Assembly (NCBI RefSeq): GCF_001435755.1
Contig: NZ_AZFI01000002.1
Coordinates: 1-45,255, forward strand
Length of the DNA: 45,255 nucleotides
DNA from: Ligilactobacillus acidipiscis DSM 15836
GTDB lineage: Bacteria > Bacillota > Bacilli > Lactobacillales > Lactobacillaceae
Direction of reading: 5' to 3'
Position numbers and translations under genes: made by a program. The notes beneath the pieces are model-generated. The model had not been told where the DNA came from and ran no database searches. It saw nothing but the letters and a program-made list of their open reading frames with translations. This document shows positions 2,245-23,631 of the stretch, piece after piece (positions within the stretch are counted from its first letter, which is position 1; each line of letters opens with the position of its first letter).

Positions 2245-4479
2245 TTAATGAATCACTCTTTTAACAACATATACATCCGAAACCCGCTTAATATTATCGA
2301 TCAATCTTTGCAATTCAATGGTGTCACGGACTCCAACTGTAATATTGATGATCGCCATCTTATTATTATCCACTCTGCCATTTACTGAATTAAGATTCTT
2401 AGTTGAATTATTGACCATTTGCAAAATATCATTTAACAGACCTGAACGATTATAACCTTCGATCTCTAAGTCTGTATCATAAAACGGATGTTCTTCAGGA
2501 ATATTATTCCAAGATACATCAATTAACCTAGTTCCATTTTTTTCTTCGTTCTTAACATTTGGACAATCCACACGGTGAACTGAAACTCCGCGTCCCTTGG
2601 TGATATAACCAACGATGTCATCACCAGGAACCGGATTACAACAATGACTCAAGCGGACCAACATATTGTCGATCCCAGCTATAACTACGCTATCTTCTTT
2701 ATTTGTAGTCTTCTTCGCTTTTGGATTGCTTTTATGTTCATTATTGAGTGATTTATGCTCTTCAAGAAGTTCTTTTTCTTGTTGCTGGCGCTTTTTTTCT
2801 TCTTGTTCTTGTCTAATATTTTCAACTAAAACATTAACGACTCCGATCGGAGTAAGTTCGCCAAAACCGATCGCAGCGTATAAATCATCCACCGTTTTAA
2901 AGTGCTTCTTCTCTAAAACGCGAGCAATATTTTTATCATTTAAAACTTCATGTGGATCAAAACCAGCATCCACCAATGAATTTTGTAAAACATCACGACC
3001 GGTATCGATATTTTCGGTCCGATCTCGTTGCTTGAAGAAACGTCTGATTTTATTACGTGCTTTATTAGTATGGACCAAATCAAGCCAGTCTTGGCTCGGG
3101 CCCGCAGAATTTTGTGAAGTCAAAATATCAACGATGTCACCATTTTTGATTTGATAATTCAAGGGAACTATCTTGCCGTTAACTTTGGCTCCTGTGGTAT
3201 GGTGACCAATCTCTGTATGGATCGAATAGGCCATATCCAGCGGAACTGATCCCTTAGGAAGCTCGAGAACATCACCTTTAGGTGTAAAAACATAAACCCG
3301 ATCAGAAAACAGATCCCCTTTGACACTTTCCATAAAATCATTAGCGTCTTCGGACTCATTTTGAAACTCCAAGATCTCTTTGAAAAAGTTTAACTTTTCC
3401 CCAGTATCCGTTGAATTGACAGCGTCCTTTTTTCCTTCTTTATATGCCCAATGAGCAGCAATACCATACTCAGCAACTTGATGCATTTCTTCCGTACGGA
3501 TCTGTACCTCGAAAGGTCGACCTGCCGGGCCCAAAACGGTCGTATGCAACGATTGATACATGTTAGCTTTAGGCATAGCTATATAATCTTTGAAACGCCC
3601 TGGCATTGGCTTCCATCTTGTATGGATCGCGCCTAAAACTGCATAACAATCTTTAATGGATTTTACGACCACACGAATGGCTATCAGATCATAAATTTGC
3701 TCAAATTGTTTGTGCTGATCTCGCATCTTGCGGTAAATCGAATAAATATGCTTTGGCCGACCATAAATTTCGCAGTTCAAATCTAAATCAGCGATCGCTT
3801 TTTTAATTTGCTCGATCACTTGCTCAATGTACTTCAATCGCTCCGTACGCTTAGAATTCATTAAGTGTACTATTCGATAATATTGTTGAGGGTTTAAGTA
3901 TCTCAAAGAAGTATCTTCTAGTTCCCACTTGATTGTACTAATACCTAAACGATCAGCTAATGGTGCATAGATTTCAAGAGTCTCATTGGCGATCCTTCGT
4001 TGCTTATCAGGGCGCAAATGGCTTAGTGTCCGCATATTATGCAGGCGATCAGCAAGTTTAACAATGATCACCCGTAGATCTTGTGACATTGCAAGCAACA
4101 ATTTACGGTGATTTTCTGCTTGGGCTTCTTGATGAGAAATATACTTGATTTTGCTTAACTTGGTCACACCATCAACAATAATTTGTACGTCTTTGCCAAA
4201 AAGTTCACCCACATCACCTAAAGTGACTTCTGTATCTTCAACGACGTCATGCAAAAAGCCAGCACAAACAGTAGCTGGGTCCATCTTTAAGTCTGCCAGA
4301 ATACCAGCAACTTGAATCGAATGAATAATATAAGGTTCCCCTGATTTTCTAACCTGTTCTTTGTGGACATATGTTGCAAAATCACATGCTTTTTGTACCA
4401 AAGCAACATGTTCTTGATTCATATAATCCCTACACATAGAGAGTACATCTTCGGCACTCCAAATTGTTTCTTTTTCCAT
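2245..4479 (-). CDS. rel: Bifunctional (p)ppGpp synthetase/hydrolase Rel
   Basis: This is the long stringent-response enzyme that makes and degrades (p)ppGpp. Domains in order are: an N-terminal HD hydrolase with intact HDVVEDT and [12 protein letters not shown] motifs, a RelA/SpoT synthetase region ending in [13 protein letters not shown], a TGS domain starting [16 protein letters not shown], a conserved cysteine region with [12 protein letters not shown], and a C-terminal ACT domain. Both catalytic halves look intact. The ATG at 4479 is preferred because GGGGTGA lies six bases upstream; the ATG at 4485 abuts it. The length of 744 residues is typical. It is followed by dtd after 25 bases. 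In an uninfected relative it would lie downstream of rsmE and a small membrane-protein gene. Confidence 0.97.
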
Positions 4480-6047: not shown

Positions 6048-6827
6048 TCAAAGTTTAAATTTTTTACTAAGCGAATTAATTATATCTTGGTAATGATCAA
6101 ATTGGAAATAAAGAAATTCTTTTGCTGCTAATAAATCATCGCAGCTTATATTCCAACTTGATGGTATACCCTCAAGAAAGCTTTGCTTTGTTTCATCGGT
6201 GAGATTTTTAACACTTCGTTCAATTTTTGAAAAGGGATAATCGCCTGTAATTTGTGAAACCAAATTCTGATACAACTCCTCATCTAATTCTTTAATTAAA
6301 ACTGGAGGTGTTATCATATCCTGGTTTAAACTAATTTTATCCCAAATTTGTGCAATCCTAAATATATATCCAAAATCAATAAGCGTTATGTTTTTTGTTT
6401 TCTTTTCAAGCAGCCAATTACCACGATTCCCTCCTCTATCAACATTCATAAGCAGCTGATCTAGAAAAAGTATACCAGGAAAGTCTTCTTTATTACTCGC
6501 ACTTCTCATGTGAGCTGGCAGGCCACCTGTAATACCGTCTATCCATTCTGATATAAAACATTCTCCAGGCTCAGCTTTTATAGACATTAAAGCAGGAGTA
6601 CGATCAATTAGCTCTTGGGATAATCTAGCAATTTCAAAATCGGGAGTTGGCAATGAGAGAGCTTTAGCAACTCGGTAGCCCACAAGCTCGTTAAACAATG
6701 ATTTTCCATTTGATCCTTCATTTCGACATTTCATAACAAACAACTTTAATCCACTGTCACAATAAACTTTAAAGGGATTAGTCGTGCCAATTTTTATTTT
6801 GTTTTCGATCGATGTAATCTTTTTCAT
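6048..6827 (-). CDS. HipA-like serine/threonine kinase-fold protein
   Basis: The 259-residue protein resembles the small HipA-like kinases that occur beside DUF3037 genes. Kinase features visible are the ATP-binding lysine in FVMKCRN (K33), a helix-C glutamate in FNELVGYRVAKAL (E47), a hinge FISEWIDG, the catalytic loop NVDRGGNRGN (D130, N134/N137) and a DFG motif in LIDFGYIF (D151). The catalytic set is intact, so an active kinase is expected. It is shorter than classical HipA (about 440 residues) and has no adjacent HipB-type repressor. It lies in the slot between endolysin and attL, where phages carry lysogenic-conversion genes. A toxin, persistence or anti-phage role is an inference. Confidence 0.75.
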   Translation of the reverse strand: MKKITSIENKIKIGTTNPFKVYCDSGLKLFVMKCRNEGSNGKSLFNELVGYRVAKALSLPTPDFEIARLSQELIDRTPALMSIKAEPGECFISEWIDGITGGLPAHMRSASNKEDFPGILFLDQLLMNVDRGGNRGNWLLEKKTKNITLIDFGYIFRIAQIWDKISLNQDMITPPVLIKELDEELYQNLVSQITGDYPFSKIERSVKNLTDETKQSFLEGIPSSWNISCDDLLAAKEFLYFQFDHYQDIINSLSKKFKL

Positions 6828-19111: not shown

Positions 19112-19165
19112 TATTTTGATCTCCTTTTTCGTCTCACTTCTACTCGTCTCTGTTTTTTAATTAAA

Positions 19166-19228
19166 TTACTTTTCTAGCTTGGTCTCCCCGACCGCGCCTT
19201 GGTCGACGATCGGGGTTGTTATTTTCCC
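19166..19228 (-). promoter_or_regulatory. Programmed -1 frameshift signal and C-terminal extension of the major tail protein
   Basis: The zero-frame end reads TCG GGA AAA TAA. GGGAAAA (19222-19228) fits X XXY YYZ exactly. Six bases on, an eight-pair stem starts (CCCCGATC with GGTCGGGG, loop of 14). A -1 slip would bypass the stop and add ITTPIVDQGAVGETKLEK, ending at 19166. The same arrangement occurs at the major capsid gene. Confidence 0.75.
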
Positions 19229-19710
19229 GAGTTATCGTCCGGGTGTTTGACATCTGGCTTTCCGTCAAAATCGGCGTTAAACGAGAATGTCTGTTTTGCA
19301 CCTGGTGCACCACCAGAAGGTACAATCGCAGACATGTTAATAACACTAGTCAATACTGTACCGTCTGTTGCAGTCCAGCGGAACAACGTCTTCAAATCAG
19401 GACCGATTGAATATTGCTTAGACACAACATAATCTTGACCTTCATCGCCTTGTTTGCGGTGTCCTGCAAATTGCAATTGCAAACGCTTAGCGGTAACGTC
19501 AGTTGTTTGCCAACCTTCCCCGTCGTAGTATTCATCATTACTAGATGTTTCATTGTACGAAGGTGTAACATTATTAACACCACCAGCAATAGGAACGAAC
19601 TTTGCTTCCTCGACATCATCTAGTGTCTTGTGGGAAAGAACGTCAATTTCATATCTGTTTTCATGGTTTAAAGTAAATCCACCAATGTTTTTAGGCATTT
19701 CTTCAGCCAT
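19219..19710 (-). CDS. Major tail tube protein
   Basis: The 163-residue protein has an N-terminal stretch MAEEMPKNIGGFTLNHENRY and a beta-rich body. It lies immediately upstream of two tail chaperone genes and the tape measure gene, the invariant position of the tube protein. GAGGAATAA lies before the ATG. The zero-frame product ends NSGK; a predicted minor fraction would carry an 18-residue extension by -1 frameshifting. The sequence is compatible with the phage tail tube families of A118-type phages. Confidence 0.88.
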   Translation of the reverse strand: MAEEMPKNIGGFTLNHENRYEIDVLSHKTLDDVEEAKFVPIAGGVNNVTPSYNETSSNDEYYDGEGWQTTDVTAKRLQLQFAGHRKQGDEGQDYVVSKQYSIGPDLKTLFRWTATDGTVLTSVINMSAIVPSGGAPGAKQTFSFNADFDGKPDVKHPDDNSGK

Positions 19711-21348: not shown

Positions 21349-21525
21349 TTATTTAGTAGCTTTATTAACAGAAAAGTCCACGGTTGTGTTATCGGTGAAA
21401 GTAACCTTTGCACCAGTAACTACACCGTTCTTATCTTCGTTGATAACACCGGCAGCATCGGTAAACCAATTTTCATATTTCGTTAATCCTGCTAATTTAA
21501 TGCGTCTTCTGGTGCCGGTGTCCAT
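21349..21525 (-). CDS. Small ORF overlapping the end of the fibre-like gene; possible C-terminal remnant
   Basis: A 58-codon frame from ATG 21525 ends in KVTFTDNTTVDFSVNKATK. It overlaps the last 34 bases of the 189-residue gene in the -1 frame. There is no clear ribosome binding site before the ATG. The first residues read like noise, but from KLAGLTKYENWF onward it looks like real phage protein. It may be the tail of a head-fibre gene whose 5' part was replaced by the two inserted genes upstream. Confidence 0.45.
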   Translation of the reverse strand: MDTGTRRRIKLAGLTKYENWFTDAAGVINEDKNGVVTGAKVTFTDNTTVDFSVNKATK

Positions 21526-22061
21526 GGGGTAGCAACACTGCCCTTTTCCAGCTTCAACTTACCGAATTTCAAATATGTTCCTGTGCTTAAATCAAAAGCG
21601 GAACTCGATCCTCCGATGTCAAACAATCGTACATTGTTATATGTTTTACCCGGCCACGTGTATGTTGATACAAGCTTATAGCTATTTTGTCCTAGCTTTT
21701 GAACCCTCGCTGGTTGATAATCATGCCCTGCCCCGGTATGCCATGTAATTTGAGCCTCACTCAGGTCTTTGACAGTTGCATCAGTCTCAAACCATATTGT
21801 TTGAGTATAAGTCGTCCCTTTAGTAAGCATATACCAAAAGGAATGTGGATCTTGTGGAAGAATTTCACCAGCAGTATTTAATGGTAATTTCAAGTAAGCA
21901 TAGCCGTCTTGCCAGACAGTATTAGGGATGCCATAACCCATCACGTATTCCTGATTAGTACCAGAAGCTAGATTCTTACCATATACTTGCTCGCCATTGC
22001 TGAAAACCTTGTCCACCGGCTTACCATCAACAACACACGCTTTACCGTTGATTATTGACAT
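21492..22061 (-). CDS. Fibre/carbohydrate-binding-like protein inside the head module
   Basis: The 189-residue protein starts MSIINGKACVVDGKPVDKVF, has a beta-rich body with many aromatic residues, and ends LKLEKGSVATPWTPAPEDALN. The ending matches the end of the carbohydrate-binding-like module of the GDPD tail protein (LKFGxxKxExGxxATxWxPAPED). GGGGTGATTAA precedes the ATG. It lies between the BppU-like gene and the connector gene, where a head decoration or fibre gene may stand. A virion surface protein that binds wall sugars is a reasonable inference. Confidence 0.65.
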   Translation of the reverse strand: MSIINGKACVVDGKPVDKVFSNGEQVYGKNLASGTNQEYVMGYGIPNTVWQDGYAYLKLPLNTAGEILPQDPHSFWYMLTKGTTYTQTIWFETDATVKDLSEAQITWHTGAGHDYQPARVQKLGQNSYKLVSTYTWPGKTYNNVRLFDIGGSSSAFDLSTGTYLKFGKLKLEKGSVATPWTPAPEDALN

Positions 22062-22065
22062 TTAA

Positions 22066-22599
22066 TCACCCCTCAATGAAGTAGACGCCGGACTTGTCAG
22101 TCAACGCGTCATACTCTGCTTGTGAGACGATATTGATAACGGCATCATCACCCTTATCGCCTTTCAGACCATCACCAACAGCATCTGATACTTCTCTTTT
22201 TAGTTGTTGGCTTAGGTCGCTGAACTGCTGAATAAAGTCGTCAACCGTGATGCTGCTGACTAGATCCCCAGAAATTCCAGTGACGTTCTCGTTGATTTTA
22301 AGTGCTAAAAATCCATCACTAGGATAGATTGCAGTGCCACCATTTACGGTGTCCCACAACTCAAGCAGATAGCTTCCAACTGGCAATTGAGCCAATTGTC
22401 CGCTAGTGATGGTTGCCTGATATCCCGCGATACTGGCACTGATTCCCAACAGATATCCGGAATCGTTTTTAATTCTGACCTTTGCATCTACTGATAGGTT
22501 TGCTGCACCACCATCATCGAACGCATTCAAATATATTTCAGTTGTGGTATCGGCAAATTTAAACTGTTTATTGCCGTTGTCAAGATATAGCTTCCTAAT
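22066..22599 (-). CDS. BppU-like (baseplate upper protein N-terminal domain) protein with abnormal start
   Basis: The translated frame from about 22596 reads RKLYLDNGNKQFKFADTTTE and continues with NAFDDGGAANLSVDAKVRIKN, typical of the BppU N-terminal domain. A short collagen-like GLKGDKGDD piece and a small C-terminal domain follow. No ATG, GTG or TTG opens the domain. The frame begins after a TGA at about 22606, and the only codon behind the AGGAG is ATT at 22599. The nearest ATG (22609) is one frame out. Either ATT is used, a one-base shift has broken the start, or an internal TTG at 22530 gives a shortened protein. Confidence 0.6.
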   Translation of the reverse strand: MRKLYLDNGNKQFKFADTTTEIYLNAFDDGGAANLSVDAKVRIKNDSGYLLGISASIAGYQATITSGQLAQLPVGSYLLELWDTVNGGTAIYPSDGFLALKINENVTGISGDLVSSITVDDFIQQFSDLSQQLKREVSDAVGDGLKGDKGDDAVINIVSQAEYDALTDKSGVYFIEG

Positions 22600-22702
22600 A
22601 AAGAATCATCTCCTCGCGCTAATCATATTCATCATCGTTATCTCATTAAGCTGTGGTATCAGTACCCGTTGATTCAGCCATATATATTCACTCTTTTTCT
22701 TA

Positions 22703-22762
22703 TTATGTTAATCTGGCAGCGCCGACCTTAACCTTGCCGACTGTCGGCGGTGTTATTTTCCC
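22703..22762 (-). promoter_or_regulatory. Programmed -1 frameshift signal and C-terminal extension of the major capsid protein
   Basis: The zero frame ends TCG GGA AAA TAA. GGGAAAA (22756-22762) is followed after six bases by CGCCGAC, which pairs perfectly with GTCGGCG (7 bp); a smaller GCCGA/TCGGC alternative exists. A -1 slip adds [17 protein letters not shown], ending at 22703. The arrangement copies the one at the major tail gene. Confidence 0.75.
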
Positions 22763-23631
22763 GAGCCACCATCACTTTTTGGTGTGATACCTGTATAGAT
22801 ACCAGCTTTGGCATTATCTAATACGATTGCATCATAGTAGGATAAGCCTTTGATTGTGTACCGGTAACCGCTGCGGTCTGTTTCTGGTGAAATAACTGAA
22901 ACGTCATCATATTTTACAATCGGTGCAATAGCAGTTAATGGAGTTAAGGCAAAGTTAACTGTGCCCCCGATGTCCAAACCACTAATGCGATCTTTAGCCA
23001 CGCGCAAAATCGGAACACCGCCGTCAAGCTGTGCAACACTCCGATCAATGCCGTTGATGTTTTGTGTATTTACAGAAAATGAACGGGCGATGTCCTTTGC
23101 ATTTTTCAAGGCTTTATAGAAGCCAGCAGATGCAAATAAGACATATCCGCCTGGGATCTCATGATCAAGCATATATGCTTCAATATCGTCGTATACATCC
23201 AACACATTTTTAGCCGTGACAGTATCAGTAACGTTTTTACCAGCATTATCGGCTAAGACCTGCATTGCCACCTTGTCACGGCGTGGGATAGTTACCCGGC
23301 GTTGATGTTCAGAAACAACATTGGCAACTTGGTATGCACCGTTTTCAGATGTGTCCAACTCATCAAGATCGTATCCAATCCAGTCTTCATGTGTAAGTTT
23401 GACTGTTTCTTTAGTCATGTTTACCTTAGACCGAGCATTATCTCCATTGCGAACATATTCTTTCGGTTGCATTAAGCCGTCCATTTTGTTGATCCGTACT
23501 TCATTGACACCCACAAAATCAGCAGCAGTAACGCTCTTAGCGCCTGCCATTAGTGGTTGCCAGATTTGAGATTCGGCAGCAAACTCCTGATCAATTTGCG
23601 CCATATCTTTACTATCTAAAACAATACTCAT
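22753..23631 (-). CDS. Major capsid protein
   Basis: The 292-residue protein follows the scaffold gene and has the look of a HK97-fold capsid protein of the A118/SPP1 group. Features are an N-terminal [20 protein letters not shown], then [24 protein letters not shown], a [13 protein letters not shown] helix, and a C-terminal [34 protein letters not shown] precedes the ATG. There is no long N-terminal delta domain, in keeping with the separate scaffold gene. A -1 frameshift signal at the end predicts a minor form longer by 17 residues. Confidence 0.9.

Follow-up and report, generated by a model that had tools for sequence, protein, structure and literature searches.

Short recoded tags paired on the major capsid and major tail proteins of Firmicutes phages may dock a shared decoration protein

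When phage structural genes are recoded, the usual interpretation is that whole Ig-like domains are being added, the purpose of which is unclear. In phage A2, a -1 frameshift in both the major head and the major tail gene adds Ig-like extensions, and the recoding of T3 and of the Listeria phages A118, A500 and PSA is reviewed beside it (in the available part of PMC5009743). In SPP1, a frameshift gives part of the tail subunits an FN3 domain (gp17.1 and gp17.1*, ratio 3:1) that is dispensable, according to the accessible text of PMC8718954. A different arrangement is described for phi29, whose head fibre is seated on a BIG2 insertion domain of the coat protein; the available portion of PMC7602432 does not mention a recoded tag.

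Here we analysed a stretch of 45,255 nucleotides from Ligilactobacillus acidipiscis DSM 15836 (the window). As in A2, the genes concerned are those for the major capsid protein (MCP) and the major tail protein (MTP), and the -1 slip site stands just ahead of the stop codon (Table 1). Unlike A2, which adds 84-89 Ig-like residues, the window adds 17-18 after GGGAAAA, and these extensions of 17 and 18 residues are not complete Ig-like domains. The window is a case of the described kind of recoding with unusually short extensions, which we call tags. Listeria phage PSA resembles it in that both structural genes (cps and tsh) are recoded, but in the +1 direction (record annotation and the available part of PMC5009743). 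We rejected PSA as a tag carrier, since by our own reading its +1 extensions run 47 and 24 residues past the stops and do not belong to this tag family. We propose, with a rough probability of 0.6, that a single decoration protein attaches to both head and tail by way of recoded docking tags, a reading in which shift and docking are predicted from the sequences.

Table 1. Positions of the recoded genes, their candidate signals and the neighbouring open reading frames in the window
Feature	Positions	Strand	Evidence or remark
MTP gene, 0 frame, 163 aa	19219..19710	-	ORF; major tail protein family phrog_820, 9e-46
MTP slippery heptamer GGGAAAA, stop TAA directly next	19222..19228	-	heptamer scan
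MTP stem-loop, candidate frameshift stimulator, 6 nt past heptamer	19186..19215	-	-19.4 kcal/mol
MTP -1 frame tag ITTPIVDQGAVGETKLEK and stop codon	19166..19222	-	-1 frame reading; tag family
MCP gene, 0 frame, 292 aa	22753..23631	-	ORF; major head protein family phrog_422, 1.5e-69
MCP slippery heptamer GGGAAAA, stop TAA directly next	22756..22762	-	heptamer scan
MCP -1 frame tag (17 residues) and stop codon	22703..22756	-	-1 frame reading
Probable left-over start of partner (head fibre), MAESTGTDTTA then stop	22646..22681	-	L005 and L097 have MAEAVEWK.. here
Tail-fibre-like ORF with short collagen-like stretch, in partner's place	22066..22530	-	phrog_4440, 3.5e-57
189-aa ORF in partner's place	21492..22061	-	weak matches to virion adsorption and tail protein families
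58-aa ORF	21349..21525	-	C-terminal 34 residues 97% identical to C-terminus of L005 partner

Both genes end in G GGA AAA TAA, an X XXY YYZ heptamer in the -1 slip phase with the stop immediately behind it. Past the slip, the -1 frame stays open for 18 codons in the MTP and 17 in the MCP, and the -1 reading of the MTP end is GK-ITTPIVDQGAVGETKLEK. The preliminary description of this DNA held that an identical string closes the two genes, and TCGGGAAAATAACA does occur in two exact copies (19217-19230 and 22751-22764, minus strand), both in slippery phase. At up to two mismatches it has 5 matches in the window against 0.45 expected, a number reached in 0 of 100 shuffles. Among the 45 ORFs of at least 100 aa (overlaps above 60 nt removed, heptamer sought within 16 nt of the stop), three have an X XXY YYZ heptamer near the stop, and the extension exceeds 3 codons only for the MCP and MTP. 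The six-base spacer and stem first described for the MTP are also present, the stem as a strong hairpin of 9 outer pairs (z -2.3 and -2.8 against dinucleotide shuffles). That of the MCP is weaker, and the controls leave it ambiguous: dinucleotide shuffles give z of -0.4 and -1.1, mononucleotide shuffles -2.3. At the slip-signal region, Rfam gave no family at gathering scores, and an E-value search of 401 bases returned a chance match only.

Are these signals kept in relatives? Loss of the string from close relatives had been named as evidence against the design; a close relative (locus L005 in our own numbering; 93% in the MTP, 99% in the MCP) keeps both strings. Relatives more distant than L005 have tags with other slip sites, or no tags. 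The host genome holds one further copy of GGGAAAATAACAAC, on contig C13. Because the host has one match to the MTP and one to the MCP, this copy does not lie at such a gene, and we rejected it as a third signal of the kind, judging it a chance occurrence.

We then surveyed loci from IMG/VR (among the matches listed), GTDB contigs, further genomes and named phages. Across the 1070 distinct gene ends of the first set of relatives, 66 X XXY YYZ heptamers lie between -13 and -4. Seven of these ends carry GGGAAAA at -7; all seven are MCP or MTP, and two are the window's own. CCCAAAA at -10 was found at 31, likewise all MCP or MTP (N-termini read by eye), and the remaining heptamers were found at other genes too. 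A larger scan of 3109 genes gave GGGAAAA at -7 in 8 and CCCAAAA at -10 in 74, with gene identity checked for part of them. Phage A2 (L132) was recovered as a positive control, with CCCAAAA at -10 in both genes and extensions of 89 and 84 residues counted from the slip.

Two other features were seen in the course of this survey. The MCPs of L021-L025, L074, L107, L108, L110, L095 and L096 have -1 extensions of 44-72 residues after CCCAAAA, which by eye look HeH/LEM-like. Separately, an element GAGACGAG-N-(G/A)TGAGACG lies between the window's tail gene and the next gene (19130-19152, minus strand). It occurs within 400 nt downstream in 27 of 168 distinct rows of the MTP set (some of them non-MTP) versus 0 of 235 MCP rows. 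There are 57 redundant matches to it in 3.76 Mb and 0 in 120 mononucleotide-shuffled sequences, and an Rfam search found no family for it.

To what extent do tags on the two genes go together? A profile search of 389 sequences (among the matches listed) gave 605 rows, or 397 distinct gene-end contexts, from which 150 distinct MCP-MTP pairs were formed (among the matches listed). Nine were dropped because the MTP profile had drifted into Ig domains, placing the 'MTP' row within 300 nt of the MCP, which left 141 usable pairs. With a tag called as a slip motif plus an extension of 14-28 residues, and among the matches listed, 17 of the 141 pairs have tags on both genes and 14 have long extensions on both; mixed pairs (tag with long or mid-length extension) number 0 of 141, and one pair (L167) has a tag on the MTP only. 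By our own grouping, the 17 doubly tagged pairs represent 8 lineages and two MCP profile families without common matches. Seven further loci (L085, L093, L094, L234, L247, L267 and L290) show an MCP tag together with the partner ORF discussed below, their MTP row being false and the pair dropped. The idea of matching -1 signals in two structural genes thus extends to several lineages, and the pairing, with the likeness of tags within a phage, lends support to the earlier suggestion of a common surface tag.

Tagged genes have a characteristic neighbour. In the downstream reading, an ORF begins about 2-24 nt past the stop codon that closes one of the tags (in some named phages the gap reaches about 70 nt). 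Most lineages have this partner ORF behind the MCP; in L222, L224, L351 and L352 it follows the MTP, and it is never behind both where both genes are in view. Defined as a profile match or fibre motif within 400 nt of the tagged gene, a partner was found near 16 of 17 tag/tag pairs versus 0 of 124 other usable pairs (among the matches listed), with a profile and motif that were built from tagged phages and would miss other kinds of partner beside untagged genes. The linkage gives a Fisher value of 3.5e-20 with relatedness ignored. The 16 include L005, where the ORF is interrupted, L165, where the profile match starts within the domain, and L223, cut by the contig end. The exception, L004, shares both genes with the window at 100% identity, and we take it to be the same phage.

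In most lineages, the first 55-70 residues of the partner look like FN3 strands C-G. An FN3-part profile made from 10 partner ORFs was run on 52413 open segments, and its matches adjoin tagged genes. Matches in L290, L083 and L088 are untagged by the slip rule, yet have a tag-like peptide, which either follows a degenerate slip site or is read in the +1 frame (the latter by eye). Searches for partner homologues at E 0.01 matched 350 and 593 phage records, the majority from Staphylococcus and Enterococcus. Three of four FN3-type partners searched match PHROG_341, 'major tail protein' (6.8e-14 to 1.1e-18); for these partners the label appears to be a misnomer, each being a small ORF of its own behind the MCP or MTP and not the tube protein.

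Several partners show features of their own. Behind the MCP gene of L083, the +1 frame encodes the tag-like peptide SPQIKAVTTTGTTATIEMEE (by eye); the partner that comes next carries an additional FN3-like repeat, and L088 is similar. A segment like the HeH/LEM-like extensions closes the L231 and L236 partners, with a Pfam HeH match only at E 0.042 (L231). The L148 partner ORF itself ends in a tag-like peptide, EAAIDVTATPIDNGAKVAAE (6239-6298, plus strand), which might permit head-to-tail chaining. The large Staphylococcus phage phiIBB-SEP1 (L392) has a partner-like ORF at 3513-3791 (plus strand), and the 7.2 kb around it hold no capsid gene and no recognised tube gene.

We also judged 13 further partner-bearing phages, picked from match lists and not at random. 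Both MCP and MTP are tagged in 12 of them: phiEf11, SANTOR1, PLE3, phiSP119-2, TMW 1.46 P1, EV3, BtpYZU02, PLE2, phiRg519T2, L400 (genes by our own reading), EFAP-1 and VEsP-2. IME-EFm5 is the exception. The tag reading is weakest for phiSP119-2, and the PLE2 record annotates a joined (shifted) tail protein.

What might tag and partner form together? The tags of one group, class B, follow a pattern defined here as P..V..V.PT..GA.V on both MCP and MTP. The window's tags differ from it, and the FN3 C-G partner of this class has no profile match within the window. For two loci we joined the tag, a short native linker and the partner, with the stop codon read as Q, so that the models comprise tag and partner only, both tethered. 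AlphaFold2 gave a mean pLDDT of 88.1 for the L148 MCP tag with its partner and 90.7 for the L222 MTP tag with its partner. In both, the tag (first 20 residues) is predicted as two strands with pLDDT 86-93, and the linker block is poorly defined (61 and 67). FN3 domains, by title, head both Foldseek lists against the PDB, mostly at probability 1.00, with other Ig-type folds in the top 50; the best E-values are 1.3e-3 and 2.4e-3, none below 0.001. In these two tethered predictions, it looks as if the tag supplies the first two FN3 strands that the partner lacks, docking in trans being a proposal that goes beyond the tethered chains. Pfam gave no FN3 match for tag or partner. A sub-threshold FlgD_ig match improved on joining the tag to the partner in one lineage (0.0064 to 0.0013 and 0.0015) and in none of four others searched. 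The idea that the tags are stubs of a lost Ig-like domain is therefore only partly apt: in most tagged lineages the tag is like the first two strands of such a domain, the remainder being encoded separately close behind one of the two tags, and the evidence does not extend to the window's own subtype. A Pfam search of ten tags gave no match.

The window belongs to a different subtype, class A, with a tag pattern of roughly P-x6-VG-x3-L (grouping by eye). The window, L005 and L098 have such tags on both genes, the L097 MCP tag lacks the P, and L399 and L400 are similar. Class-A-like tags were found in Ligilactobacillus pobuzihii (L097/L103) and Lacticaseibacillus songhuajiangensis (L098/L105). 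In L097 and L098, a collagen-like gene that starts with a W.D.DVITA.KLN motif follows the MCP tag, and among the loci then scanned, 3 of 3 distinct ORFs with a VIT(A/S)EKLN-type motif lie behind class-A-tagged MCPs. The fibre motif also led to Ruminococcus phage phiRg519T2, where the tags read IIPSDDVALVGRGKVGKAKVGKTK and IAPPEDLALVGRGEIGKAKVGKAK and a head fibre is annotated; this phage and L400 repeat the pattern of class-A tag plus fibre. The C-terminus of the phiRg519T2 partner, whose gene lies behind the MCP, matches PF11133 (3.4e-9), and a PF11133 search of the L097 and L098 partners gave no match.

The head-fibre ORF behind the tagged MCP is intact in L097, L098 and L399 and not in the window or L005. 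In L005 it is broken by a one-base frame change (by eye). The window keeps only the start of the head fibre and its last 34 residues (21352-21453), with fibre-like ORFs between them; for one of these (22066..22530), the N-terminus appears to be encoded ahead of the first common start codon (by eye). The window phage thus keeps both tags, while its partner gene has been remodelled.

Within a phage, the tags on MCP and MTP resemble each other. Over the 8 lineages, this likeness has a p of about 1e-4 over all 40320 permutations. For 18 lineages including +1 and in-frame tags, some of them fairly close (such as L137 with TMW 1.46 P1, and SANTOR1 with EFAP-1), the within-phage mean score is 57.6 versus 20.4 permuted (sd 3.7, maximum 40.4), and a score as high was reached in 0 of 200000 permutations. 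The own MTP tag is the best match for 13 of 18 MCP tags and not first for 5; the window's own ranks 5th. Codon use also points to constraint on the peptide. Over 16 homologous tag pairs, in which some sequences are used twice and two pairs of unequal length were compared without gaps, pN/pS is 0.51 in the tag frame versus 1.11 and 1.23 in the two alternative frames. In 13 pairs with each sequence used once, 67 of 125 substitutions fall at the third positions of tag-frame codons (p 2.5e-6, overstated by treating substitutions as independent). The single tag substitution seen in the window's own lineage is non-synonymous.

Taken as a mechanism, our reading runs as follows. Ribosomes would slip by -1 at G GGA AAA, aided by the hairpin and the stop codon, and a minority of tail and capsid subunits would gain a short C-terminal docking tag. 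The partner would be a decoration or fibre protein with a single gene, located shortly after one of the tags, and the tags of one phage would be alike because they serve this one partner. In most lineages, the tag would provide strands A-B and the partner strands C-G, so that docking completes a split FN3 fold; in the window's subtype, the partner would be a collagen-like head fibre. That the shift occurs, that tags reach virions and that the partner binds the tag are steps that we infer. The wider statement for tailed phages of Firmicutes, in which a recoded or in-frame A-B hairpin tag on part of the capsid and tail-tube subunits completes an FN3 fold in trans or binds a class-A head fibre, and head and tail are both decorated by one adaptor whose cargo is Ig-like, HeH-like or collagen-like, we hold a little less firmly, at slightly better than even odds.

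Could the RNA alone matter, with the slip site and hairpin tuning ribosome flow to downstream genes and the peptide irrelevant? The stem arms do encode tag residues (TP from ACCCCG, VG from GTCGGGG), and of the 34 tag regions in the 17 pairs, many of which are related, 28 fold at z below -1 against mononucleotide shuffles. Since these arms overlap the P and G codons, part of the tag likeness may be driven by RNA. However, the constraint falls in codons of the tag frame, and like-looking tags are encoded in frame (both genes of EV3, the phiEf11 MTP) or in +1 (SANTOR1, EFAP-1, VEsP-2), all of which make an RNA-only function very unlikely. The RNA arms bear as well on the earlier proposal of an ancestral duplicated module, which the likeness does not require: fit to one partner explains the likeness of the two tags equally well, and the arms explain part of it.

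It is also conceivable that both genes once had full Ig-like domains as in A2 and that deletions left the first strands as a decaying stub. Long Ig-like extensions do occupy the same place in A2, L010, L045 and Enterococcus L112-L115, and both the window and L005 have a damaged partner gene. Decay sits poorly, though, with paired tags kept with a linked partner over many lineages and over MCP families without common profile matches, and with the lack, among the matches listed, of any pair combining a tag with a long extension; we regard it as unlikely. Alternatively, the tag itself might bind surfaces or stabilise the virion, the neighbouring gene being merely co-inherited. The window phage, L167 (an MTP tag without a partner) and IME-EFm5 (a partner and an MCP tag, with an untagged MTP) break a strict pairing of tag and partner, as would be expected if the tag acted alone. 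Against this stand the absence of the partner from all 124 pairs without two tags (among the matches listed), its position behind either gene, and the AlphaFold2 predictions, which place the tag as strands of the partner's fold. We consider this possibility distinctly unlikely, and favour docking of a shared partner.

If the short tags are docking halves, recoding would set the number of attachment points per virion, and a single partner gene would account for the joint recoding of head and tail. A testable function would also fall to a protein family that several hundred phage records contain, in many cases under the label 'major tail protein'. In the open PubMed Central literature (titles and the starts of abstracts, subscription papers lying outside), we found none on paired short tags or a split FN3 shared by head and tail. 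Double recoding of MCP and MTP is already known, and it seems that the new part is what the short tags are. Among described systems, the phi29 head fibre gp8.5 (PF11133) shares its family with the phiRg519T2 partner. SPP1 gp17.1*, like the tail Ig domains of lambda and T5, carries a whole domain in cis and on the tail only; the tags described here, unlike that of SPP1, would each be half a domain or a docking peptide, and would sit on both head and tail.
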